Below, piece by piece: positions 27,395 to 39,142 of a stretch of DNA of 64,000 bases (position 1 is its first letter; each line of letters begins with the position of its first letter). Both the position numbers and the translations under genes were made by a program. The notes beneath the pieces are model-generated. The model worked only from the letters and a program-made list of their open reading frames with translations. It was not told the DNA's origin and ran no database searches. Source of the DNA: Pseudonocardia hydrocarbonoxydans (GTDB lineage Bacteria; Actinomycetota; Actinomycetes; Mycobacteriales; Pseudonocardiaceae); the NCBI RefSeq assembly GCF_006539565.1, contig NZ_BJNG01000034.1, positions 1 through 64,000 on the forward strand, in the 5' to 3' direction.

Positions 27395-28825
27395 CTACGG
27401 CAGGGCGACCAGCGCGAGCACCGGCCCCGAGGTGATTCCCAGCAGCACGGACGCGACGGCCGCCACATGAGCGCTCACCGTGCTCCAGGTTCCGGCGCCT
27501 GCCACAACGGTCCCGCTGTCGCCGGCCTCCCCGCCGGCCGGCCGTCGGCGGAACACCGGCGCGATCCAGCGCAGGTAGTAGAAGACACTCGCCACGGTGT
27601 TGACCACGGCGAGCACCGCGAGCCAGGCCAGGCCGGCGTCGACCGCGGCGCCGAACACGACGAGCTTGCCGAAGAACACCGCGGTGGGCGGGGTCCCGAC
27701 CAGGCCGAACAGGCACACCGCGAGGCTGAGCGCGAGCCACGGGTGCCGGGTGGCGGCGCCGCGGTAGTCGGCCGGGGTGCGCGCATGTGGCAGGGCCGCG
27801 GCGACGGCGAACGCACCCAGGTTGGTCACCGCGTAGGCGGCGAGGTAGAGACCCAGCGCCGGCAGCGCGAGCGCCGACCGGCCCGCCGCGGCCACCGCCA
27901 TCAGCAGGTACCCGACCTGGCTGATCGTGGAGTAGCCGAGCAGCCTGCGGACGTCGTCCTGGAAGAAGGCGCCGAGGTTGCCCAGCGTCATCGTCACGGC
28001 CGCGACGACGGCGACGAGCGCCGACCAGTCGACGTCGGAGCCCGGCAGTGCGGTGGTCAGCAGCCGGTGCAGCGCCAGCAGCCCGCCGATCTTGGGGACG
28101 GTGGAGACGAACGCCGCGACCGCGGTGGTGGCGCCCTGCACGACGTCGGGCACCCAGAAGTGCAGCGGTACCGCGCCGATCTTGAACAGCAGCCCGGCCA
28201 GCAGCGCGACCAGTCCTACGGCGACGGCCGCGCGGGGGGCGCCGGGCAGCGCCGGGGCGAGGTCGGCGTACTGCGTCGAGCCGCCGACGCCGAACAGCAC
28301 CGTCGCCCCCACCAGCATGGTCACCCCGGACAGCGCGCCCATCAGGTAGTACTTCATCGCCGCCTCGGTGCCGGACCCGGTGCGGGCGATGCCGGTCAGC
28401 GCGTAGAGCGGGATGCTGGCCAGCAGGTAGGCGGCGACGAGCAACAGCAGGTCGTTCGCCCCGGCCATGGTGATCGCGCCGAGCCCGCCGAGCAACAGCA
28501 GCACGTACAGCTCGGTCTCGCGGGGGCTCCCGGCGAACCCGTCGACCGACAGCCCGATGACGAGCAGGACCGACGCCAGCACCACGATCCGCACGGCACC
28601 GAGCCCCGCGTCGACGACGTAGGTGCCGTCGAACACCTCCTGCGCGGGCCGGGTGAGATCGACGGCCGCGGCCACCAGACCGGCGAGACAGGCGGCCACG
28701 GCGACCAGCCGCACCACCCACTGCCGGGTGCGGGGCAGCCACGACCCGGCGAGCAGCCCGATGACGGCGCCGAGGACGAGCAGCAGCTCGGGCAGCATCG
28801 CCGCCGGGTTCTCGTTCATCTCCAC
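27395..28825 (-). CDS. nuoN: NADH-quinone oxidoreductase subunit N-like (antiporter-type)
   Basis: 476 aa, about 14 hydrophobic helices. The proton-path lysines are in GLLFKIGAVPLHFWVPDVVQG and the region VSTVPKIGGLLAL; the broken-helix region reads LGNLGAFFQDDVRRLLGYSTISQVGY. GTG 28825 overlaps the NuoM stop by one base (TAGTG); an in-frame ATG at 28819 is an alternative start. Last gene of the operon. In complex I this subunit is one of three antiporter-like proton pumps. Confidence 0.9.
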   Translation of the reverse strand: MEMNENPAAMLPELLLVLGAVIGLLAGSWLPRTRQWVVRLVAVAACLAGLVAAAVDLTRPAQEVFDGTYVVDAGLGAVRIVVLASVLLVIGLSVDGFAGSPRETELYVLLLLGGLGAITMAGANDLLLLVAAYLLASIPLYALTGIARTGSGTEAAMKYYLMGALSGVTMLVGATVLFGVGGSTQYADLAPALPGAPRAAVAVGLVALLAGLLFKIGAVPLHFWVPDVVQGATTAVAAFVSTVPKIGGLLALHRLLTTALPGSDVDWSALVAVVAAVTMTLGNLGAFFQDDVRRLLGYSTISQVGYLLMAVAAAGRSALALPALGLYLAAYAVTNLGAFAVAAALPHARTPADYRGAATRHPWLALSLAVCLFGLVGTPPTAVFFGKLVVFGAAVDAGLAWLAVLAVVNTVASVFYYLRWIAPVFRRRPAGGEAGDSGTVVAGAGTWSTVSAHVAAVASVLLGITSGPVLALVALP

Positions 28826-30312
28826 TACCGCGCCACCAGCTCCACCACGGCCCGGGCGGCGGGCTCGACCACCTCGAGCAGGAAGGCCGGGAACACGCCG
28901 ACGACCAGCGCGAGGAGCAGCAGCGGCACGATCGCCGTCGCCTCCACCGCCGTCACGTCACCGATGTGGCGCCCGGCGGGGACTTCCGTCGCACCGAGGA
29001 ACACGCGCTGCAGCGCGAGCAGGAACAGCGCCGCGGTGAGCAGGATGCCCAGCAGCGCGATCGCGGTGGCCACCGGCGCCTGGCCGAGCGAGCCGGTGAA
29101 GATCTGGAACTCGGCGATGAACCCGGAGAATCCCGGCAGCCCGAGCGAGGCGAACGCGGCCACCGCGAACAGCAGCGCGAACCGCGGGGCGGGGCGGGCC
29201 AGCCCGGAGTAGGCGGCCATGTCGTAGGTGCCGCCGCGGGCGTGCAGCACACCGGTGAGCAGGAACAGCGCGCCGGTGATCAGCCCGTGGCTGACCATCT
29301 GCGTCACCGCGCCCGTGACGGCGAGCGTCCGCGCCTGCTCCGCTCCACCCGCGACGAGCCCGGCCGCGCCGACCCCGAGGATCACGTAGCCCATGTGGTT
29401 CACCGAGGTGTAGGCGATCATCCGCTTGAGGTCGGTCTGCGCCAGCGCGACCAGCGCGCCGTAGACCACCGACACCACCCCGACGATCACGATCACCGAC
29501 GCGTACTGGCGCCAGCTCTCCGGCAGGATCGGCATGACGATGCGGACGAAACCGTAGGTGCCCATCTTCAGCAGCACCGCGGCCAGCACCGCCGATCCCG
29601 CGGCCGGGGCGTCGCCGTGCGCGGGCGGGAGCCAGGTGTGGAACGGCACCGTCGGGGTCTTGATCGCCAGCCCGACGACCAGCGCGAGCAGCACGAGCCC
29701 GCCGAGCACACCCTGCCCGGCCAGCGGGTTCGATGCCGCGAGCTCGACGATGTCGAAGGTGCCGCCGGCGAGGTAGAGCCCGATGAAGCCCAGCAGCATC
29801 ACCAGCGAGCCGAGGAAGGTGTAGAGGAAGAACTGCAGCGCCGAGGCCCGCGCCCGCTCCCCGTGGCCCCACCCGGCGATGACGAAGTACATCGCCACGA
29901 TCGACACGTCGAAGAAGACGAAGAACAGGATCAGGTCCAGCGCGACGAACAGGCCCAGCGACGCGGTCTGCAGCAGCAGGAACAGCACCACGTAGGGGCG
30001 CACCGCCCGGCGCTCGCGCAGCGAGTACACCGCACAGGCGGCGAAGACGACCGCGGTCATCGCCACCAACGGCAGCGACAGCCCGTCGACGCCCACGTGG
30101 TACCCCGCCGACACGGTGGGGATCCAGCGCAGGTTCGTCTCGTGGCCGATGCCCGAGACGGGGTCGTAGCCGATCCACAGCGCCACGACCAGGGCGAGGT
30201 CGGCGACGCTGACCGCCACCCAGCTCCACAGGACCACCCGGTCGGGCACCCGCGGGACGGCCAGCAGCACCAGCCCCAGTGCCAGCGGCGCGAACACGAC
30301 GACGGAGAGCAA
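28825..30312 (-). CDS. nuoM: NADH-quinone oxidoreductase subunit M-like (antiporter-type)
   Basis: 495 aa. Conserved LAIKTPTVPFHTWLPPAHGDAPAAGSAVLAAVLLKMGTYG (in parts: KTPTVPFHTWLPPAH, LLKMGTYGF) carries the key Lys/His residues, and AQTDLKRMIAYTSVNHMG the second half-channel Lys. The start appears to be TTG 30312, with GAGGTGAGAG close upstream and 3 nt after the NuoL stop; no ATG or GTG fits the conserved N terminus LSVVVFAPLALGL as well. Confidence 0.92.
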   Translation of the reverse strand: MLSVVVFAPLALGLVLLAVPRVPDRVVLWSWVAVSVADLALVVALWIGYDPVSGIGHETNLRWIPTVSAGYHVGVDGLSLPLVAMTAVVFAACAVYSLRERRAVRPYVVLFLLLQTASLGLFVALDLILFFVFFDVSIVAMYFVIAGWGHGERARASALQFFLYTFLGSLVMLLGFIGLYLAGGTFDIVELAASNPLAGQGVLGGLVLLALVVGLAIKTPTVPFHTWLPPAHGDAPAAGSAVLAAVLLKMGTYGFVRIVMPILPESWRQYASVIVIVGVVSVVYGALVALAQTDLKRMIAYTSVNHMGYVILGVGAAGLVAGGAEQARTLAVTGAVTQMVSHGLITGALFLLTGVLHARGGTYDMAAYSGLARPAPRFALLFAVAAFASLGLPGFSGFIAEFQIFTGSLGQAPVATAIALLGILLTAALFLLALQRVFLGATEVPAGRHIGDVTAVEATAIVPLLLLALVVGVFPAFLLEVVEPAARAVVELVAR

Positions 30313-30315
30313 CTC

Positions 30316-32313
30316 TCACCTCACCAGCAGCAGGAACAGGGCCAGCACGGCCAGGGCGCCCACGGCCTGGGCGTAGTAGTGGTGCAGCTGCCCGGTCTGC
30401 GGGCGCCGCGCGAGGCGGCCGAGGGCGCGCGCCGCGGCGCCGACCCACCGGACGCCGCCGACGATCACGGTCTCGACGCGGAACCCGGCGACCCCTGTCG
30501 CCAGCCGCCCGGTGGTGGTCGAGATCCGCACCGCACCGGACACGACGCGGTCGTCCACGACGGCGGCCCCCCTCGCCGAGGCCCGGACCCCCGCGCCCAG
30601 CCGGGCGACCCCCGCGGCGGCCCGGTCGTCGGCCGTCGCGAGCAGCTGCGCCAGCGCCATGGTCGGCGCCGCGACACCGCGCCGGGCGAGCCGTTCGAGC
30701 CCGAGCCGGTTGCGCAGCGGCGCGACCCGGACGCCGCTACGCAGGAGCGCGGGCAGCTCGGGGAGCACCGCGTCGCCCCGCAACCCGGCGCGGGCCGGCA
30801 CCAGCACGGCCAGCACCACGGCGACCGACAGCGCCCCGGACAGCAGCGCCTCGGCGAGCGACGGCGACGGCTCGCCGGACGCGCCCAGCGCGGCCCGTAC
30901 GGGCTCGGCGGCGGCGCCGAGGGCCGCGGACGCGACGGCGAGCGGCACCAGCGGGAGCCGGGCCGCCCACGGCACCTCGCCCGTGCCCGGCCGCTCGACG
31001 GCCCGGGCCGCGTCGTCGGGGGCTGGGTCGTCGGGGGCTGGGTCGTCGGGGGCTGGGTCGTCGGGGGCCCGGCCGAGCACCGCCGCCAGCGCGGCCGCGG
31101 CGTAGGCCGCGCTGACGAGCACCCCGGCGAGCCCGGCGGCGTACAGCGCGGACGACGCCTCCGCGGCGGCGGCGAGCACGGCGTCCTTGCCGAAGAAGAC
31201 CGACAGCGGCGGCACCCCGGCCAGGCTCAGCGTGCCCACCGCGAAGAGGACCCCGACCAGCGGCCACCGCCAGGCCGCACCCCGCAGCGCGGGGAGCTGC
31301 CGGGTGCCCAGGGCCGTCAGCCACGCGCCCGCGACGAGGAACAGCAGCGCCTTGGTCGCCGCGTGCGCCAGCAGTTGCAGCGTGCCGCCCGCGGTGCCGC
31401 CGACCCCGGCGGCGAGCACGACGAACCCGATCTGCGAGCAGGTCGACGCCGCGAGGAGCTGCTTGAGGTCGGTCTGGGCGAGTGCGACCAGCCCCAGCAG
31501 CACCACCGTCGCCGCCCCCGTCCAGGCCACCACCGGCCCGGCCCACGACGAGGCGGCCAGCAGCGGCTGGACCCGCAGCAGCAGGTATCCGCCCGCGGCG
31601 ACCATCGTGGCGGAGTGCAGCAGCGCCGAGACCGCGCTCGGGCCGTCCATCGCCCGGGCGAGCCAGAAGCTGAACGGGAGCTGGGCGGACTTGCCCAGCG
31701 CGGCCACCACGAGCCCGGCGGTGAGCAGGTCGCGCCAGCCGGCGGCCGCCCCCGGCAGGTCGGCCAGGGCGAGCGTGCCCGCACCACCTGCCAGCGCCGC
31801 TCCGGCGGCGAGGTAGAGGCCGACGTCCGCGGTGCGGGTGACCAGGAACGCCGTCGTGCCCGACACGGGGGGCCGCGGAGCCGTCCAGTGGTGCGCGATG
31901 AGCGCGAACGACGTCGCACCCATGACCTCCCACGCCGCGAGCAGCGTGACCAGGTTCGTCGCGGTGACGGTCGCCAGCATCGCCCCGACGAACACCAGCA
32001 GCAGTCCGAAGAACCGGTGCCGCGCGTCCACCTCCGCGGCGGCGAACACCCCGACCGCCGGCGCCACCGCGGCTACCAGCAGCACCAACACCGCCGAGAG
32101 CCCGTCGACGGCCAGCCCTGCGTCGATTCCCGCCGGCAACGGCAGCTCCACCGCCGGTCGCGCCACCGCCACGAGCACCGCGAGACCCAGCACGACGGCG
32201 AGCACCGCGATCGCCACCGCCGCGGCGACCCGGGCGACCGGGCGCCCGGCGACCAGCAGCGCGAGGCCGGCCGCCACCGGCAGCCCCACCAGCGCGACGA
32301 GCGCGAGATCCAC
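30316..32313 (-). CDS. nuoL: NADH-quinone oxidoreductase subunit L-like (antiporter-type)
   Basis: 665 aa from GTG 32313. The helix-5 Glu is in LLAAWEVMGATSFALI and the channel Lys in ALGKSAQLPFSFWLARAMDGP; AQTDLKQLLAASTCSQIG is the second half-channel. After an inserted Pro-Asp-rich repeat (coded at 31012-31068) the C-terminal part has a long amphipathic helix and the final membrane anchor RRPQTGQLHHYYAQAVG, as in true NuoL. All residues needed for pumping seem present. Confidence 0.92.
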   Translation of the reverse strand: MDLALVALVGLPVAAGLALLVAGRPVARVAAAVAIAVLAVVLGLAVLVAVARPAVELPLPAGIDAGLAVDGLSAVLVLLVAAVAPAVGVFAAAEVDARHRFFGLLLVFVGAMLATVTATNLVTLLAAWEVMGATSFALIAHHWTAPRPPVSGTTAFLVTRTADVGLYLAAGAALAGGAGTLALADLPGAAAGWRDLLTAGLVVAALGKSAQLPFSFWLARAMDGPSAVSALLHSATMVAAGGYLLLRVQPLLAASSWAGPVVAWTGAATVVLLGLVALAQTDLKQLLAASTCSQIGFVVLAAGVGGTAGGTLQLLAHAATKALLFLVAGAWLTALGTRQLPALRGAAWRWPLVGVLFAVGTLSLAGVPPLSVFFGKDAVLAAAAEASSALYAAGLAGVLVSAAYAAAALAAVLGRAPDDPAPDDPAPDDPAPDDAARAVERPGTGEVPWAARLPLVPLAVASAALGAAAEPVRAALGASGEPSPSLAEALLSGALSVAVVLAVLVPARAGLRGDAVLPELPALLRSGVRVAPLRNRLGLERLARRGVAAPTMALAQLLATADDRAAAGVARLGAGVRASARGAAVVDDRVVSGAVRISTTTGRLATGVAGFRVETVIVGGVRWVGAAARALGRLARRPQTGQLHHYYAQAVGALAVLALFLLLVR
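31012..31068. repeat. 15-bp tandem repeat inside nuoL (3.8 copies)
   Basis: Unit GTCGTCGGGGGCTGG occurs three times at 31012-31056 and a further 12 bp at 31057-31068, all identical. In the protein it encodes repeated PAPDD units in a loop after the conserved antiporter core. Identity of copies suggests recent slippage; length is likely to vary between strains. Confidence 0.95.
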
Positions 32314-32317
32314 CGGC

Positions 32318-32623
32318 TCAGTCCCTCAGCTCGGCGGCCATGTCGGTCATGTCGATCTCGCCGGACCGGAAGATCGCGATGGCGACCGCGAACCCCATCG
32401 CCATCTCCACCGCCATCAGCGTGACCGCGACCAGCACGACCACCTGGCCGTCGGGCTGCGCCGGGGACACGAAGAACCAGAACGCCGCACCCGCGACGAT
32501 GACGGCGTTCACCATCAGCTCCAGCCCCATCATGATCATCACGATGGACTGCTGGGACAGCGCGCCGTAGAGGCCCACGGCCAGCAGCGCGACCGCGAGC
32601 AGGAGGAAGGCCTGCAACGTCAT
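32318..32623 (-). CDS. nuoK: NADH-quinone oxidoreductase subunit K-like
   Basis: 101 aa, three transmembrane helices. Both conserved membrane glutamates are kept: IVMIMMGLELMVNAV and TLMAVEMAMGFAVAIAIFR. ATG 32623 overlaps the NuoJ stop by 4 nt and the stop lies 4 nt before NuoL, so the order J-K-L is tightly coupled as in ordinary complex I operons. Confidence 0.93.
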   Translation of the reverse strand: MTLQAFLLLAVALLAVGLYGALSQQSIVMIMMGLELMVNAVIVAGAAFWFFVSPAQPDGQVVVLVAVTLMAVEMAMGFAVAIAIFRSGEIDMTDMAAELRD

Positions 32624-33183
32624 CGGCCCACACCGCCCCGGATCGGGTCGTCGGCCGGGCGGCCGCGCAGGTCGTCGCCGAAGCGGTCGTAGCGCCCGCG
32701 CGGGTGCGCGAGCACCACCGCGGAGACGATCGTGGCGAACAGGCCCAGCCCGATCACCAGCATCACCAGCATGTGCGAGCCCATCAACGCCTCGCCGAGC
32801 GCGAACGTCACGTCCTCGGGTGGCGTGCCCGCCCGCTGCGGCCAGTCGACGAGCAGCACCCCCGCGCCGAGCACGACGAACGTGCCGACCGCGATCGCCA
32901 GCGAGCCGCGCCGGTTGTGCACCATCGACATCGGCATCAACCCGGCCGGATTCATCATCAGCATGATCATGAAGATCGCCATGACGACCATCTCCATGAT
33001 CATCATGAGGATGACCAGGACCCCGAGGTAGGACAGGCCGAGCAGCAGCAGCGGCGTGGCGGCGAACACGAAGGACGCGAGCAGGGCGAACGTCGCCCGC
33101 GCCATCGAGTCCACGCGGAACACCGCGACGCCGGTGGCCACGGCACCGGCGGCGCACACCCAGAAGATCACGGCCTCGGCCAT
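32620..33183 (-). CDS. nuoJ: NADH-quinone oxidoreductase subunit J-like
   Basis: 187 aa from ATG 33183, which has GGAGG 9 nt upstream; a GTG at 33192 would add three residues. Five hydrophobic helices, with the conserved LLLLGLSYLGVLVILMMIMEMVVMAIFM region (the pi-bulge helix; key part VLVILMMIMEMVVMAIF). The second half has the NuoJ-type loop and final helix LVMLVIGLGLFATIVSAVVL. Confidence 0.9.
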   Translation of the reverse strand: MAEAVIFWVCAAGAVATGVAVFRVDSMARATFALLASFVFAATPLLLLGLSYLGVLVILMMIMEMVVMAIFMIMLMMNPAGLMPMSMVHNRRGSLAIAVGTFVVLGAGVLLVDWPQRAGTPPEDVTFALGEALMGSHMLVMLVIGLGLFATIVSAVVLAHPRGRYDRFGDDLRGRPADDPIRGGVGR

Positions 33184-33196
33184 ACCCCACACCTCC

Positions 33197-34129
33197 TCAC
33201 CGGAGCACCACGACGGCGACGACCAGGGCCTGCAGGAGCGTCAGCGGGATGAGCACCATCCAGCCCACTTCGACGAAGCGGTCCATCCGCAGCGTCGCGG
33301 TGCGACTGCGTAGCCACACCAGCAGCCCCAGTACCGCGGCGCTCTTGAGCACCGTCCACAGCCATGTCGGCAGAAGCGGCCCGGAACCGCCGCCGAGGAA
33401 CAGCGCCACCGCCATCGCCGCGGCGGCGGCCAGCAGCAGCCAGCGCCCGGCCAGCAGCAGCAACCGGTCCACCCCGGAGTGCTCGGCGAGCACACCCCCG
33501 GCGACGTCGCGCCCGGTCGCGGTGTCGAACGGGCCGGCGAACGACAGCGCGAGCGCCGAGATCAGGAACGCCGCGAACGCCACCGGCATCCACACCACGA
33601 ACCACAACCCGTCCTGCGCCGCCACCACATCGGACACCCGCAGCGACCCTGCCCCGGTCGCCACCGTGATCAGCGCGAACATGTGCGGCAGCTCGTAGGA
33701 CAGGCCCTGCACGACGAACCGGTACCCGCCGACCAGCCCCCATACGGAGTTGGTGCCCCAGCCGGCCATCCACAGCGCGGCCCACGTCACGACCTCCATC
33801 GCGTTGAACCACACGATGCCCACCGACAGATCGCTCGCGGCCACGTTCCCCCACGGCACCACCAGCGCCGCGAGCACCGCCGCCACCGGCACCAGCACGA
33901 CGCCGGTACGCGCCAGGAGCCGGTCCGAGGCGACCACCGCCCGCCGCTGCTGCACCAGCAGCCGGCCGGTCGCGGACAGCGGCGCCGCCAGCACCGCCCC
34001 GGTCACGCGCCGCCCGTCGGCCCGGGCGTCGAGCACCCGCGCGAACGACGCCCCGCCCAGCGCGAGCCCGCCGAGCAGGATCGGCACCAGCAGCACCGTC
34101 CACACCGCCCCCTGCCCGACGGGGGTCAC
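33197..34129 (-). CDS. nuoH: NuoH-like membrane subunit lacking the quinone-site signature
   Basis: 310 aa with about eight hydrophobic helices. The central region WMAGWGTNSVWGLVGGYR and VQGLSYELPHMFALI matches NuoH helices 4-5, including the conserved Glu. But the usual cytosolic motifs of NuoH, QxRxGPN and ADxxKLxxKE, are not seen where expected (the matching stretch reads APLSATGRLLVQQRR). The quinone chamber must therefore differ. GTG 34129 overlaps the preceding stop. Confidence 0.78.
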   Translation of the reverse strand: MTPVGQGAVWTVLLVPILLGGLALGGASFARVLDARADGRRVTGAVLAAPLSATGRLLVQQRRAVVASDRLLARTGVVLVPVAAVLAALVVPWGNVAASDLSVGIVWFNAMEVVTWAALWMAGWGTNSVWGLVGGYRFVVQGLSYELPHMFALITVATGAGSLRVSDVVAAQDGLWFVVWMPVAFAAFLISALALSFAGPFDTATGRDVAGGVLAEHSGVDRLLLLAGRWLLLAAAAAMAVALFLGGGSGPLLPTWLWTVLKSAAVLGLLVWLRSRTATLRMDRFVEVGWMVLIPLTLLQALVVAVVVLR

Positions 34130-35130
34130 GACGTCGCCCCCGTCCCGCTCGACTCCAGGTCCGGATCGAGCGAGGCCACCACGACCCGCACGGTCGCTAG
34201 CTCCTGCCCCTCCAGCAGCCCCGGCAACGCGGTGAGGACCGCCGCGGTCCGGTCCTCACCCGGGACCGGCGGCGAGCCCGCGACGACGTCCAGCCAGCGC
34301 CGACAGCGCTGGGTGGCGTCGCCGGTGAGGTCGCCGTGGCGCCCGTCGAGCCGGCCGACGCCGTCGGTCGCCCAGCGCAGCGTCCACGACCGACGCAGCC
34401 GCCGGGCGAATCGGTTCAGCGCGGCCGGGTCGGCCGACCCGGCGAGCACCTCGTCGCGCAGCCGTCGCGCCCGGCGTGTCGCCGTCGCGGCCCCGCACAC
34501 CGAGAGCAGGCGCGCCAGGCTGTCCAGCGCGGCGGCCGCGGGCGGGCCGTCCCAGCGACCGCCCGGCTCTCCCCACACCTCGACCGCGGCGGTCTGCACG
34601 ACGTCGCCCTGCACCGCGAGCCGCACGACCAGGCCCGCCGGCCAGTCCGGCAGGACCGGACCGAGGGTGAGGTGCAGCCGGTCGAGGGTGAGGCCGTCCC
34701 GGTCGGGCGCCCGCTCGGCCATCGGCAACCCGGCCACATCGCCGTCGTGGTCCGTACGCGTGTCGTCGTCGCTGTCGTCGGGGCGGTCACCGGGTGCGGG
34801 CCGTCGTCGCCCGGAAGTTCGGCCCGACGGACGGCCGGGTCGGTCGCCGAGTTCGGCACGCGCACGGTCGAGCCGCTCGGCGACCCCGTGCCGCACCGGT
34901 ATGTCGGCCCGCGCCCGGGGCGACCCGAGGAGGTTCCAGACCCGGTCGACGGCTGCGCCGGTGTCCGCGTCCGGTGTGCCGCACACGACCAGCAGGTCCG
35001 CGTCCGCCGGGGACGCCGCCGACTCCCAGCCCCGCTCCCTCATCAGCCGCTCGACGTCGAGGCGAACGGCCCGCCCGGCCCGCACCGGCACGACCAGCAC
35101 CCGGGGCGTGGACCACCGCATCAGGTCCAT
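34126..35130 (-). CDS. cysteine-poor NuoB-like subunit of the nuo-type operon, otherwise unknown
   Basis: 334 aa at the position where nuoB would stand. Residues 10-80 (PRVLVVPVRAG, ADADLLVVCGTPDADTG, VDRVWNLLGSPRARADIPV) loosely follow the NuoB/hydrogenase-small-subunit fold, where the family has ADVLIVAGTP. The four cluster-N2 cysteines including the CC pair are absent; only three scattered Cys occur. A charged linker (about 95-135) leads to a second, alpha-rich domain of unknown kind. ATG 35130 overlaps nuoA by 10 nt and has GAGGG 9 nt upstream. Probably a structural subunit capping NuoA/H (inference). Confidence 0.6.
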   Translation of the reverse strand: MDLMRWSTPRVLVVPVRAGRAVRLDVERLMRERGWESAASPADADLLVVCGTPDADTGAAVDRVWNLLGSPRARADIPVRHGVAERLDRARAELGDRPGRPSGRTSGRRRPAPGDRPDDSDDDTRTDHDGDVAGLPMAERAPDRDGLTLDRLHLTLGPVLPDWPAGLVVRLAVQGDVVQTAAVEVWGEPGGRWDGPPAAAALDSLARLLSVCGAATATRRARRLRDEVLAGSADPAALNRFARRLRRSWTLRWATDGVGRLDGRHGDLTGDATQRCRRWLDVVAGSPPVPGEDRTAAVLTALPGLLEGQELATVRVVVASLDPDLESSGTGATS

Positions 35131-35474
35131 CGGAACGTGCCCTCACGCCAGGCGTAGACCACGCCCACCATCAGGACGGCGAGGAACCCGAACATCTCGA
35201 CGACGGCCTTCGGCCCGACCTGCGCCACGACGACGGCCCACGGGTACATGAAGACCATCTCCATGTCGAATGCCAGGAAGACCATCGTGACCGTGTACCA
35301 CCGCACGTGGTGCCGCGACACGGCGTGCTCCTCCGGCGCCATACCGGAGGAGAACGGATCGACGACCAGCACGCCCGGCGCCCACCGCACGAGCGCCGCC
35401 ACGCCGTATGTCGCCGCCACTGCGGCGACGGTGGCCACCAGGAGCAGCAGAACCGGCGCGAACTCGGATTGCAT
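35121..35474 (-). CDS. nuoA: NADH-quinone oxidoreductase subunit A-like
   Basis: 117 aa with three transmembrane helices. Conserved loop PFSSGMAPEEHAVSRHHVRWY (in parts: PFSSGMAPEEHA and RWYTVTMVFLAFDMEMVFMYPWAVV) matches the family pattern GxxP and FDxExxFLYPWA. ATG 35474 shares its A with the TGA of the 32-aa microprotein before it. Confidence 0.9.
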   Translation of the reverse strand: MQSEFAPVLLLLVATVAAVAATYGVAALVRWAPGVLVVDPFSSGMAPEEHAVSRHHVRWYTVTMVFLAFDMEMVFMYPWAVVVAQVGPKAVVEMFGFLAVLMVGVVYAWREGTFRWT

Positions 35475-35572
35475 CAGGTCCCGTCCTCCACGGCGGCGGA
35501 CAGGCCCACGGCGTCGGCCGACCGCTCACGTGGGCCGGCGGGCGGGTCGTCGATCGTGACCACCGCCGTCAT
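35474..35572 (-). CDS. 32-aa microprotein bridging HPP and nuoA genes
   Basis: ATG 35572 overlaps the HPP stop (ATGA) and its TGA overlaps the nuoA ATG (TGATG), so it fills the only apparent gap in the operon exactly. The peptide begins MTAVVTIDDPPAGPRERSAD and is acidic and without a membrane helix. It may be a tiny subunit or only a translational bridge. Confidence 0.5.
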   Translation of the reverse strand: MTAVVTIDDPPAGPRERSADAVGLSAAVEDGT

Positions 35573-36117
35573 CTCCACCACGGATGACGCAGGCCGAGCA
35601 CCCGGTTGAGTGCGACCGAGACGACGGTGAGCAGGAGGACCCCGCTCGCGATCGCGAGAAGCTCGGGCCATGAGGTCAGCAGCCCCAGCGACACGATCAG
35701 CGTCGTCGCCCCGGCGGGTGGATGCGGCGCGTCGAGGAGCTTCAGGACCAGCGCGGTCAGCGCGACGGAGACCGAGGCCGCGCCGATCCGGGCCAGGGTG
35801 ATGCCCTGCTGCAGGACCGGTGGCGCGGCGAGGAGCCCGAACAGCAGCAGGCTCAGCCAGCCGGCTCCGATCGCGACGGCGTGGCCGGACAGCGTGTTGC
35901 GCGGGGCGGCCGCGGCCTGCAGCGGCCGCTCGAAGAACAGCATCGCGGTCGGACCGAGACTGGGGAACAGCAGCGGCTGGCGGACCAGCAGACCCACCAG
36001 CCCGATGAGGGCCAGTGACAGCAGGCACAGGAGGAAGGCGTAAGCCCCGCCGCCCGCCCGTCCCGCACGTTCCTCCGCCGCGGCGAGCACGCCCCGATCA
36101 CCGTCGCGCGCGCTCAT
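35569..36117 (-). CDS. HPP family integral membrane protein
   Basis: 182 aa. LFPSLGPTAMLFFERPLQ, then GHAVAIGAGW and the name-giving motif DAPHPPAGATTLIVSLG, with four to five helices. HPP proteins are found in nitrogen-assimilation contexts (chloroplast nitrite uptake is known for a plant member), which may fit the NapA-like enzyme in this operon. ATG 36117 overlaps the preceding stop by 4 nt. Confidence 0.88.
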   Translation of the reverse strand: MSARDGDRGVLAAAEERAGRAGGGAYAFLLCLLSLALIGLVGLLVRQPLLFPSLGPTAMLFFERPLQAAAAPRNTLSGHAVAIGAGWLSLLLFGLLAAPPVLQQGITLARIGAASVSVALTALVLKLLDAPHPPAGATTLIVSLGLLTSWPELLAIASGVLLLTVVSVALNRVLGLRHPWWR

Positions 36118-36572
36118 CGGGCCGCGATCAGCGCCTGCGGCGCCGCCTGCTTGATCCGCGTGCGCAGCCAGCGCAGCTGGACCGCCGTCTCCCGCTCACA
36201 GGTACCGACGACGTCGAGGAGCTCGCGGTCGGCCAGTCCCTGCCCGGCCTGCCCCACGACGGTCCAGGTGATGTCGACGAACGAGGCGAGGGTGTAGAGG
36301 TCCTGCAGATCACGGAGCAGGCCCACCCCGCCACTGCGGGTCTCGCCGAGCCCGGCCGTGAGCAGCCGCTCGGGCTCGGTCTCGCGCCGCTCGTCGTGGC
36401 GCTCGACGACCGGGACGAGCGCGTCGGTGTGCCGGTCGCACTGCCGAGCGAGGACTTCGCAGAGGTGGAACACGTCGGGCTCGGCCGCGTGCCCGTCCCC
36501 GACCCGGCGGAACGCCTCGGCGAGTGTGTGCTCGGCGTGGTGCAGCAGGCCGAGGTAGGTGGCGAGATGCAT
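36114..36572 (-). CDS. predicted four-helix-bundle (ferritin/hemerythrin-like) protein
   Basis: 152 aa, all alpha. Helices carry paired His/Glu: LGLLHHAEHTLAEAF, FHLCEVLARQCDRHTDAL and VERHDERRETEPERLL, then LRDLQDLYTLASFVDITWTVV and RETAVQLRWLRTRIKQAA. The pattern suggests a metal-binding or structural bundle, but canonical ferritin ExxH motifs are not clear. Its ATG lies 1 nt after the molybdopterin enzyme stop, pointing to a partner role. Confidence 0.55.
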   Translation of the reverse strand: MHLATYLGLLHHAEHTLAEAFRRVGDGHAAEPDVFHLCEVLARQCDRHTDALVPVVERHDERRETEPERLLTAGLGETRSGGVGLLRDLQDLYTLASFVDITWTVVGQAGQGLADRELLDVVGTCERETAVQLRWLRTRIKQAAPQALIAAR

Positions 36573-36573
36573 G

Positions 36574-39108
36574 TCAGCTCCGGTCCGTGGCCTCGTGGCG
36601 GGGGACGCCCGGGGTGTGCTCCGGGGTGGGCGGTGCGGGCGGCGGCGCGGACTCGCCGACCCGCTCCTGCGTGGCCGCCCCCGGGCCACCGACGGTGCCG
36701 GCGACGGCGCCGGGCCGCGCGGGTGCGGACGCGGTCGTCGTCGGCGCGGCCGCGGGCCCCGTCCCGTCCGCGACCCGCACGACCCGGGCCGCGGCGACCT
36801 TGAACAGGGGCTGCTTGGACACCGGGTCCCATTCGGTCAGCGTCAGCTCGTTGGCCGCGTGCGGGTCGTCACCGGGGGCCCGCCCGGCCGGAGTGTCCCA
36901 GTAGCCGTAATGGAACGGCACGAACACCACCCCGTCGCGTCCGCGGCCGATCCGGGCCGGGGCCTGGACCGACCCGCGCGGGGACTCCACGCACAGCACG
37001 TCGCCCTCGGCGACCCCGAGTCGGGCCGCGTCGGCGACCGACAGCTCGACCCAGGGTTCCGGCGCCGCCCGCCGCAACTGCCGGGACCGCCCGGTCTTGG
37101 TGCGGGTGTGGAACTGGTAGGCGGTGCGCCCACTGATCACCGCGAAGGGGTACTCGTCGTCGGGCGCCTCGGGCGCGGCGGTGTACGGCGACCCCTTCAG
37201 CAGTGCCCGGCCCCGCACGTCCAGGGCCCGGTAGGTCCGCTCGTCGAGCGAACCGCCGGTGAGCAGGTCGTGGCCGTAGCTCTCGCACACCCCGGGGTCG
37301 GTGGGGAACACCCCGTCGGCGTAGAGCCGGTCGGTGCCCTCGGGGTGCTCGTCGTTGCACGGCCACGGGATGCCGCTGCCGCCGCGCAGCTTCTCGTAGG
37401 ACAGCCCGGTGTAGTCGCACAGCCGCCCCCGCGTGCACTCCCGCCACGCCGCGAACGCACCCTCCGGGTCGGTCCAGGCGATCAGGGGTGCGCCGTCCCG
37501 GTCGCGCAGGTCCATCCGCCGGGCGTAGTCCAGGAAGATGTCGAGATCGCTGCGCGCCTCGCCGGGCGGGTCGACGGCCCGGTCCGACAAGTGCACCGTG
37601 CGGTTGACGTTGGTGAAGGTGCCCTGCTTCTCCCCCCACATCGCCGCGGGCAGCACCACGTCGGCGTACTGGGCGGTCTCGGTGAGGAACCCGTCCTGGA
37701 CGACGACGAACAGGTCCTCGCGGGCGAGGATCGCCCGGATCCGGGCCAGCTCGGGCATCGACACGGCCGGGTTGGTCGCCGAGATCCACAGCAGCCGGAT
37801 CGAGCCCTGCTCGGCGTAGCGCCACAGCTGCATCGCGTGCGTCGGCGGGGCCCAGTGCGGGATGGTCAAGGGGTCGACGTTCCACAGCCGCGCGAGCTGG
37901 TCGATGTGCTCGGCGTCGTCCCAGTTGCGGAACCCGGGCAGGTCGCCGTCGGCGCCGCACTCGCGGGTGTTCTGCGCGGTGGGCTGGCCGTTCATCTGCA
38001 GGATCCCGCAGCCGGGCCGGCCGATCATGCCGCGCAGCAGGTGCAGGTTGTTCACCTGACAGGCGGCCGCAGTGGCCTGGTGGGACTGGTAGAACCCCTG
38101 CAGCACCGTCGACAGCACCCGGGGCGAGGTCCCGAAGATCTCCGCGGCGCGGCGCACGTCGGAGGCCGGCACCCGGCAGATCTTCGCCGCCACCTCCGGG
38201 GTGTAGGGCTCCACCGTCGCGGCCAGCTCGTCGAACCCGAGGGTATGGGCGTACACGTAGTCCCGGTCGGCCCAGCCCCGGTGGATCACCTCGCGCACCA
38301 GCGCGTTCATCAGCGCCATGTTCGTGCCCGGCATCGGCGCGAGGTGCACCCCGCCGGTCGCGACCGCCGCCTCCGCGACCGGGGTCGTCCGCGGGTCCAC
38401 CGCGACCACCCGCGGCGGATCGGCACCGTGCACCCGGTCCAGCACCCGGGCCCACAGCACGGTCTGGGTCTCGGCCATGTTGTGGCCGAACAGGAAGATC
38501 GCGTCGCAGGACTCGATGTCGGTGTAGCTGCCCGGCTGGCCGTCGGAGCCGAAGCTCTCCTTCATCGCCGCGGCCGCGGTCGCGGTGCACAGCCGGGTGT
38601 TGCCGTCCATGTGCGGGGTGCCGATACCGGCCTTCCCGATCACCGCCAGGGTGTAGTACTCCTCGAGGAACAGCTGCCCGCTCGTGTAGAAGCCGTGCGA
38701 GAGCGGGCCCACATCGTCCAGCAGCGCGCGGGAACGCTCCACGATCCGCCCCATCGCGGTGTCCCAGTCGGACTTCACCAGCTCGCCGTTCTCGCGCACG
38801 AGCGGACGGGTCAACCGGTCGCTGCGGCTCCACTGCCACGACCCGTACAGGCCCTTCGGACCCAGCCGACCGTGGTTGACCGTGTCCTGCGCCCGCCCGC
38901 GCACGCCGACCATGCGGCCGTCCTTGACCGCGATGTCGCACGCGCAGCCGTTGCTGCACAGCACGCACGCCGACTGCACCCAGCGGTCCACGTCGGCCTC
39001 GCCCACATCGCCGTCCAGATGCATGTCCACCCGCACCGGCCACGACTCGTCCCTGGCGTGCGGGGTTCGAGCGCCCCAGATGTCGCTGATGCGGTCTGCC
39101 TCGTCCAT
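36574..39108 (-). CDS. molybdopterin oxidoreductase, NapA/formate-dehydrogenase-like catalytic subunit
   Basis: 844 aa, no Tat signal, so cytoplasmic. Cys48, Cys51 and Cys55 form the start of the 4Fe-4S motif, but the usual fourth Cys is replaced by Gly in NHGRLGPKG (family: LxCxKG). The segment NTRLCTATAAAAMKESFGS with DIESCDAIFLFGHNMAETQ closely parallels NapA, making the Cys in RLC the likely Mo ligand. C-terminal molybdopterin-binding domain is seen from VELSVADAARLGVAEGD to FVPFHYGYWD, followed by a disordered Pro/Ala tail of about 65 residues. First gene of the 12-gene operon; substrate (nitrate, formate or other) is not decided. Confidence 0.85.
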   Translation of the reverse strand: MDEADRISDIWGARTPHARDESWPVRVDMHLDGDVGEADVDRWVQSACVLCSNGCACDIAVKDGRMVGVRGRAQDTVNHGRLGPKGLYGSWQWSRSDRLTRPLVRENGELVKSDWDTAMGRIVERSRALLDDVGPLSHGFYTSGQLFLEEYYTLAVIGKAGIGTPHMDGNTRLCTATAAAAMKESFGSDGQPGSYTDIESCDAIFLFGHNMAETQTVLWARVLDRVHGADPPRVVAVDPRTTPVAEAAVATGGVHLAPMPGTNMALMNALVREVIHRGWADRDYVYAHTLGFDELAATVEPYTPEVAAKICRVPASDVRRAAEIFGTSPRVLSTVLQGFYQSHQATAAACQVNNLHLLRGMIGRPGCGILQMNGQPTAQNTRECGADGDLPGFRNWDDAEHIDQLARLWNVDPLTIPHWAPPTHAMQLWRYAEQGSIRLLWISATNPAVSMPELARIRAILAREDLFVVVQDGFLTETAQYADVVLPAAMWGEKQGTFTNVNRTVHLSDRAVDPPGEARSDLDIFLDYARRMDLRDRDGAPLIAWTDPEGAFAAWRECTRGRLCDYTGLSYEKLRGGSGIPWPCNDEHPEGTDRLYADGVFPTDPGVCESYGHDLLTGGSLDERTYRALDVRGRALLKGSPYTAAPEAPDDEYPFAVISGRTAYQFHTRTKTGRSRQLRRAAPEPWVELSVADAARLGVAEGDVLCVESPRGSVQAPARIGRGRDGVVFVPFHYGYWDTPAGRAPGDDPHAANELTLTEWDPVSKQPLFKVAAARVVRVADGTGPAAAPTTTASAPARPGAVAGTVGGPGAATQERVGESAPPPAPPTPEHTPGVPRHEATDRS

Positions 39109-39117
39109 ACCGCTCGC

Positions 39118-39142
39118 GTACCCCGGCCACCGGCGCCCAACC
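39118..39142 (-). promoter_or_regulatory. SigB/SigF-type promoter of the molybdopterin/Nuo operon, GGTT-N15-GGGTAC
   Basis: Minus strand: GGTT (39142-39139), 15 nt, GGGTAC (39123-39118), 9 nt, ATG 39108. No Shine-Dalgarno precedes the ATG, which fits a leaderless message. Predicted to drive about 11.7 kb of coupled genes. Confidence 0.65.

Follow-up and report, generated by a model that had tools for sequence, protein, structure and literature searches.

A run of genes that joins a molybdenum enzyme to the membrane arm of respiratory complex I raises the question of whether the one drives the other. Such a run lies in a 64 000 nt stretch of the Pseudonocardia hydrocarbonoxydans genome (contig NZ_BJNG01000034.1, positions 1–64 000; hereafter the window), where genes for a molybdopterin enzyme (mopB), a four-helix protein (h4), an HPP-family membrane protein (HPP), a micro-ORF (open reading frame), nuoA, a protein here termed X and nuoHJKLMN follow one another, all on the minus strand. 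An earlier, sequence-only reading took MopB, the four-helix protein and X for the input module of a proton pump. Comparison across genomes shows that the run consists of two modules that otherwise occur apart, mopB-h4-HPP and nuoA-X-nuoHJKLMN, and that the second (hereafter the core) derives from complex I, forms a discrete actinobacterial unit and, X apart, has lost the peripheral arm. As to what it does, we lean towards an electron-free, complex-I-derived ion translocator, often under copper control, that has here been captured behind a nitrate-reductase-like operon.

In order to establish how the two modules are distributed, X was sought in 100 genomes of relatives, 394 of the class and 397 of the order. 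It was found in 36 of the relatives (counting the window's own genome and one weak match, in G060), clearly in 27 of the class genomes and in 78 of the order genomes; the other 24 of the 51 class positives matched only a stretch of ∼40 positions in the NuoB-like part, as a canonical NuoB would. In 33 loci fetched around X (30 from the same genus and three from the same order), the order A-X-H-J-K-L-M-N held as far as the contigs reach, with mopB and h4 near the core in one (L063) and HPP in none. A scan of named contigs, overlapping with this set and analysed for the best 80 of 131 relatives, gave the same order in all 80 as far as contigs reach (73 reach nuoN and seven end at contig ends; L147 shows one extra NuoM-like segment), and in none of these 80 did mopB, h4 or HPP lie co-directionally with the core. 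On the opposite strand such genes were seen at L190, which is the Pseudonocardia oceani locus L063, and MopB segments of 23–40 % were seen at L128 and L158.

The molybdenum-enzyme genes, for their part, occur without the core. We found h4 in 24 of the 100 relatives and in 69 of the 394 class genomes, with mopB present in 21 of 24 short h4 loci. A Curtobacterium plasmid and a Gloeothece plasmid have mopB-h4-HPP in the same order and, within the stretches shown, no nuo genes (in the latter, seen by tblastn too, with h4 in two pieces). The genes downstream of HPP in Curtobacterium (NTP transferase, DUF6457 and MoeA) had no match in the window. Both X and h4 are present in 55 genomes besides that of the window (16 + 8 + 31, the last from 74 further X-positive genomes). 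The two lie within 10 kb in G059 (5.6 kb), G126 (8.5 kb) and G585 (9.7 kb), divergently in each case, and 24–69 kb apart on one contig in seven more. By coordinates the one-operon arrangement was found in none of the 55, many of which are drafts with some pairs on short separate contigs (e.g. G023), so that a few neighbouring pairs could be missed. Since none of the 80 named loci is co-directional and the three close pairs are divergent, neither the gene order from mopB to nuoN nor the proposed molybdenum-enzyme input module is conserved, and the window operon is one more rearrangement, with no second case at the loci examined.

The protein that sets the core apart is X (34126–35130), which appears to be a NuoB–NuoD fusion without N2 ligands or quinone histidines: a domain that sequence profiles place with NuoB (about residues 9–100), a linker, and a domain whose predicted fold is NuoD-like (about residues 150–330) and whose top structural match is chain E of the Escherichia coli formate hydrogenlyase. 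This assignment was obtained only from profile and structure model, as searches of Pfam, NCBIfam, PHROGs and PDB chains with single X sequences returned nothing useful, and just two of 35 X proteins scanned singly touch the NuoB family (best E-value 0.022). The sequence-only reading had called X NuoB-like, which is borne out for its N-terminal part, and had seen no N2 cysteines in it; indeed, the protein of the window has three cysteines and no CC pair, so that the N2 motif is absent, and all of 114 X sequences lack a CC pair in the 80 residues that precede their linker. The GPxHPxxHG motif of NuoD aligns over GPVLPDWPAG in X, in an alignment that is weak but in register. The linker is highly variable in length, and its median content across the same 114 sequences (duplicates included) is 9 His and 4 Met; it is His-poor (<5 His) in 31 of 112 copies, and that of the window has two.

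The membrane subunits of the core, with the charged axis that complex I requires, are all present, as the sequence-only reading had stated. Pfam confirms nuoA (35121–35474; PF00507, E-value 5.1e-25), nuoH (33197–34129; PF00146, 6.2e-48), nuoJ (32620–33192, starting at GTG 33192 or ATG 33183; PF00499, 6.2e-12), nuoK (32318–32623; PF00420, 4.5e-14) and nuoN (27395–28825; PF00361), and in NCBIfam nuoM (28825–30312; TIGR01972) and nuoN (TIGR01770) score over their cut-offs, whilst nuoL (30316–32313) stays under those of its top matches, NF005141 and TIGR01974. The claim that the pumping residues are kept holds for NuoK (both membrane Glu), NuoL (E129, K208, K321 and K376) and NuoN (K215, K245 and K387), and in part for NuoM, where K218, K249 and E401 are kept and Asp135 replaces the canonical Glu144. 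This substitution is a fixed change in the pumping channel, Asp being found at this place in 96 % of 76 family members.

The quinone site, by comparison, is not that of complex I. The NuoD His pair is missing, and alignment to the E. coli and Thermus NuoH, together with conservation within the family, showed that the quinone-loop acids of NuoH are lost, the canonical E231 and E243 being kept in a fraction of 0.00 of 78. Over the whole run, translations, Pfam and NCBIfam revealed no NuoC, E, F, G or I, and the stretch that separates mopB from the membrane genes codes for no iron–sulfur subunit. The sequence-only reading was thus correct for NuoC, E, F, G and I, whilst its absence of NuoD needs amending, as X has a NuoD-like domain. 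Since the complex lacks an iron–sulfur chain, cluster N2 and the residues of the quinone site, we infer that it does not reduce quinone. The core would instead be an ion translocator, most likely for H+ or H+/cation exchange along the L/M/N/K path, with X holding and gating the membrane arm. In many hosts the X linker may bind metal and the complex may be made under copper stress; in the window, the core would be co-expressed with the molybdenum enzyme and mechanistically separate from it, with no shared electron path.

Compared with respiratory complex I, which also has an 11-subunit form without NuoEFG, the core shares A, H, J, K, L, M and N and holds NuoB- and NuoD-like parts in X; it differs in having no C, E, F, G or I, and in that B and D are fused and devoid of N2 ligands and quinone histidines. 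Mrp antiporters, formate hydrogenlyase and membrane-bound hydrogenases have related L/M/N-type subunits, but the core has no hydrogenase, iron–sulfur or small Mrp subunit.

The suggestion of copper control comes in part from the genes around the core. Of 12 larger neighbour clusters from the 80 named loci put to Pfam, two had no family and ten matched: copper-type ATPase, DUF305, CsoR type, multicopper oxidase, histidine kinase, ArsR type, NlpC/P60, BNR, HMA (heavy-metal-associated) and DUF326. The copper-type neighbours among these are the P-type ATPase, CsoR, DUF305, the multicopper oxidase, the HMA chaperone and the Cys-rich DUF326 protein; no conserved redox partner of the core was found among the 12. 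Within about 10 kb of the core, any of the four main copper families (ATPase, CsoR, DUF305 and multicopper oxidase) was present at 37 of the 80 named loci and 25 of the 33 loci fetched around X, as opposed to three of 40 random 20-kb control regions, which came from eight genomes of the same genus and were not matched for islands or plasmids. Two or more of the families were present at 20 of 80, 20 of 33 and none of the 40 controls, and CsoR at 17, 21 and none, respectively. When X was clustered at 60 % identity, 15 of 32 clusters had any copper family and nine had CsoR. The ATPase, CsoR and cl18, a conserved His-containing protein without a Pfam family, occurred together in 16 of the 33 loci.

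Upstream of nuoA, moreover, a palindrome of the form TACCC-N4..6-GGGTA (at most one mismatch) was found in 26 of 95 non-redundant regions (eight perfect), compared with two of 547 control genes (none perfect). The spacer is 5 nt in 25 of the 95, with 0–2 loci for each spacer of 0–4 and 6–10 nt; spacers of 2–7 nt together gave 27 of 95, and about 2.6 in shuffles. This pattern was chosen once a small number of upstream regions had been viewed, and it proved afterwards to agree with a published consensus: the geometry with a 5 nt spacer equals the TAC-X9-GTA of the Streptomyces lividans CsoR operator, ATATACCCCTNAGGGGTATAT, as given in the excerpt of PMC3902906. Perfect sites stand in L127 (on the same contig as L032) and L036, two of the nearest relatives of the window core. 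A k-mer search of the nuoA upstream regions gave nothing over shuffles for k = 7–9 and a marginal result for k = 10; the operator signal emerges with the CsoR-type pattern only. The same half-sites show a second peak at spacers of 11 and 12 nt (6 and 10 loci, four of them perfect at 12).

The composition of the X linker is correlated with the neighbourhood. At least one of the six copper families was present at 59 of 81 His-rich loci (5 or more His) and at nine of 31 His-poor ones, duplicates included; for the four main families, the association gave P = 0.001 without near-identical copies and P = 0.02 at an 80 % cut. The window copy itself has no copper neighbours, no CsoR-type operator and no His-rich linker: none of 11 copper-island queries matched in its 64 kb, and no CsoR-type operator was found near the operon.

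Several points weigh against the reading that we favour. The sequence similarity of X to NuoD is weak (E-value 0.013–0.024), and hhalign gave a probability of 2–3 %, with five column-shuffled decoys scoring lower; the NuoD identity of X rests on predicted structure, where the best E-value from Foldseek alone was 0.0012, none falling below 0.001 for X or for h4. The copper families were taken from the neighbour clusters of the 80 core loci, i.e. chosen after the loci had been viewed, and the unmatched controls temper the comparison further. None of the four families is found at 43 of the 80 loci, and no CsoR-type operator in 69 of the 95 upstream regions. The closest relatives of the window core (L032–L036) have DUF305 (two), a BNR protein (one) or nothing (two) alongside. 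At 60 % clustering, the link between linker His and copper genes falls to 12 of 22 versus three of 10 (P = 0.27). Finally, the three of 55 genomes with X and h4 within 10 kb exceed a roughly estimated chance expectation of ∼0.25, and therefore leave room for a functional link between the two modules.

A bolder form of the favoured reading would make the core a dedicated actinobacterial copper-stress complex that is built on the membrane arm of complex I and has abandoned electron transfer. Under the control of CsoR it would move H+ or Cu+/H+, with the NuoB–NuoD fusion and its copper-binding linker as gate or driver; in the species of the window it would have been uncoupled from copper and re-wired to a molybdenum-enzyme operon. 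We put this forward tentatively, as possible rather than probable. Were it true, complex I parts would have changed drivers in this species. The electron-free translocator, in turn, would if real be a natural example of the membrane arm of complex I operating apart from quinone chemistry, and as such would bear on how the arm moves ions.

The core itself has been reported before. As the sequence-only reading noted, incomplete nuo clusters occur in actinomycetes: published as partial NDH-1 operons, they include operon 2 of Salinispora, with seven nuo genes (Penn and Jensen 2012, PMC3314556), a nuoA, hypothetical protein, nuoHJKLMN order among the 'marine adaptation genes' of Streptomyces SM17/SM18 (2019, PMC6676996), and seven nuo genes in Kocuria flava S43 (2018, PMC6002675). 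The core is the same as ours, as is the gene order stated for Streptomyces; as far as the excerpts of these papers go, the hypothetical protein is unexplained, no mopB-h4-HPP stands ahead and no copper regulation is proposed. Copper neighbours, a CsoR-type operator and a His-rich linker, seen in many members of the family and not in all, fall outside that published definition. None of the titles and abstract openings surveyed connects the partial nuo operon with regulation by copper or with an operon that contains mopB, and in the literature searched we found no identification of X as a NuoB–NuoD fusion and no link of the partial operon to CsoR. What is new is therefore the copper islands, the CsoR-type operators, the His-rich linker and the identity of X, which, as a fusion without redox ligands in a copper context, points to a testable function for the partial nuo operon. 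In the same excerpts, the SM17/SM18 paper mentions strain SM254 from copper-rich fluids, and the Kocuria paper mentions copD as a separate gene and a K. marina from a copper mineral.

In the excerpts of all three papers, the partial operon is read as a proton or sodium pump that serves marine or osmotic adaptation. The conserved membrane residues suit such a pump and fit an electron-free antiporter. The core, however, is found in many genera, including Mycobacterium, Cryobacterium and Modestobacter (by record titles); its annotated neighbour clusters are largely of copper type, osmolyte genes not having been specifically searched for; and CsoR-type operators stand upstream of nuoA. We hold this explanation to be rather unlikely.

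Less likely still is the model with which the locus was first read, in which MopB, h4 and X form an input or output module that couples formate oxidation or nitrate-type reduction to pumping. In its favour, the genes touch or overlap from mopB to nuoN, h4, accompanied by mopB at those loci that were read, lies divergently within 10 kb of the core in G059, G126 and G585, and seven further genomes have h4 24–69 kb away. Furthermore, the X linkers of the window, L063 and G126 (L284/L285) hold only 2, 0 and 2 His, and none of the three has a match to the four copper families nearby, as if molybdenum and copper contexts were alternatives. Set against this are the single operon, seen in the window only, the loss of the N2 cysteine pair and quinone histidines from X and of the quinone-loop residues from NuoH, and a Gly in place of the fourth iron–sulfur Cys of MopB, with no relay subunit between this enzyme and the membrane genes; h4, moreover, looks like a plain four-helix protein with weak likeness to ferritins. 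MopB and the four-helix protein are thus not supported as an input module. The core may be loosely associated with mopB-h4, which is not the conserved module proposed, and a coupling particular to the species of the window may exist.

MopB (36574–39108; 844 aa; PF00384, PF01568 and PF04879) is a NapA/NasA/FdhF-like enzyme that aligns end to end with NapA 2jim (E-value 2.1e-111), its closest solved chain, and shares the Mo-ligand Cys in the same place. It differs from the NapA family in that the fourth Fe4S4 Cys is Gly (GRLGPKG), as also in three homologues (L090, L091 and L093), and in that it falls under every cut-off among the 25 NCBIfam families listed out of 27, missing the curated nitrate-reductase scores with 328.7 of 930.55 bits for NAPA and 368.6 of 1100 bits for NasC. 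In the Rhodococcus koreensis MopB (L091), further cluster cysteines are gone too. Its usual partner h4 (36114–36572) has no Pfam or NCBIfam family; the AlphaFold model (predicted local distance difference test score 87.6) is a four-helix bundle, possibly ferritin-like, which in Foldseek weakly resembles ferritins, bacterioferritins and YciE (best E-value 0.0099; template modelling score about 0.6–0.76). The third gene, HPP (35569–36117; TM_HPP, PF04982, E-value 1.7e-20), follows mopB-h4 in Curtobacterium, Gloeothece and G126 as well, and HPP proteins are known as nitrite carriers. As MopB misses the NCBIfam cut-offs and h4 is weakly ferritin-like, a nitrate or nitrite role for mopB-h4-HPP is only a guess.

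That the window operon is a decaying fusion, in which a core captured behind mopB-h4-HPP is now drifting or non-functional, would account for its few linker His and missing copper neighbours; the twelve intact reading frames, the tight junctions, the conserved membrane charges, and a NuoH and NuoK 83–97 % identical to those of L032–L036 make this very improbable. Least credible of all is that X is a new redox protein whose linker copper stands in for N2, pumping being powered as quinone oxidizes Cu(I). His-rich linkers do go with copper neighbours, and the NuoB- and NuoD-like folds are kept; yet linker length differs widely between copies, 31 of 112 linkers are His-poor, X and NuoH no longer have the residues of the quinone site, and the idea is inapplicable to the window copy.

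As regards the layout of the operon, coordinates and translations confirm that the twelve genes, with the micro-ORF of 32 aa, lie on one strand with overlaps or gaps of at most 13 nt, as the sequence-only reading had stated. There is a 1 nt gap between mopB and h4, followed by overlaps of 4 nt (h4/HPP), 4 nt (HPP/micro-ORF), 1 nt (micro-ORF/nuoA), 10 nt (nuoA/X) and 4 nt (X/nuoH). The gap between nuoH and nuoJ is 13 or 4 nt for the ATG and GTG starts of nuoJ, respectively; nuoJ and nuoK overlap by 4 nt, gaps of 4 and 3 nt separate nuoK/nuoL and nuoL/nuoM, and nuoM and nuoN overlap by 1 nt (end of nuoM/GTG 28825) or stand 5 nt apart (ATG 28819). The upper end of the run had been placed at 39142, a position that does not share the reading frame of the mopB stop; ATG 39108 fits the homologues. 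The microprotein noticed between HPP and nuoA is present (35474–35572), overlapping the HPP stop and the nuoA start; no counterpart upstream of nuoA was visible by eye in nine relatives, and it probably serves translational coupling only.

Some further observations concern the surroundings of the two modules elsewhere. In Pseudonocardia autotrophica, Mycobacterium avium and Rhodococcus pyridinivorans (L094, L095 and L096), plasmids typed as mobilizable carry the core. Heavy-metal ATPase and heavy-metal-associated-domain genes adjoin it in the first two records, and no such genes are seen beside it within the stretch shown of the third. In G126 (L284:2019–9798), mopB-h4-HPP is followed by genes that read by eye as cydA, cydB and CydD-like, with the divergent core 5–6 kb off. 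P. oceani (G059; L040, L062 and L063) has the core three times over: copper genes accompany two of the copies, and the other lies next to mopB-h4. The genome of the window, for its part, carries a complete nuoA-N on contig C42, where B, C, D, E, F, G and I were assigned by Pfam, A, H, K and L by tblastn, and J, M and N by reading.

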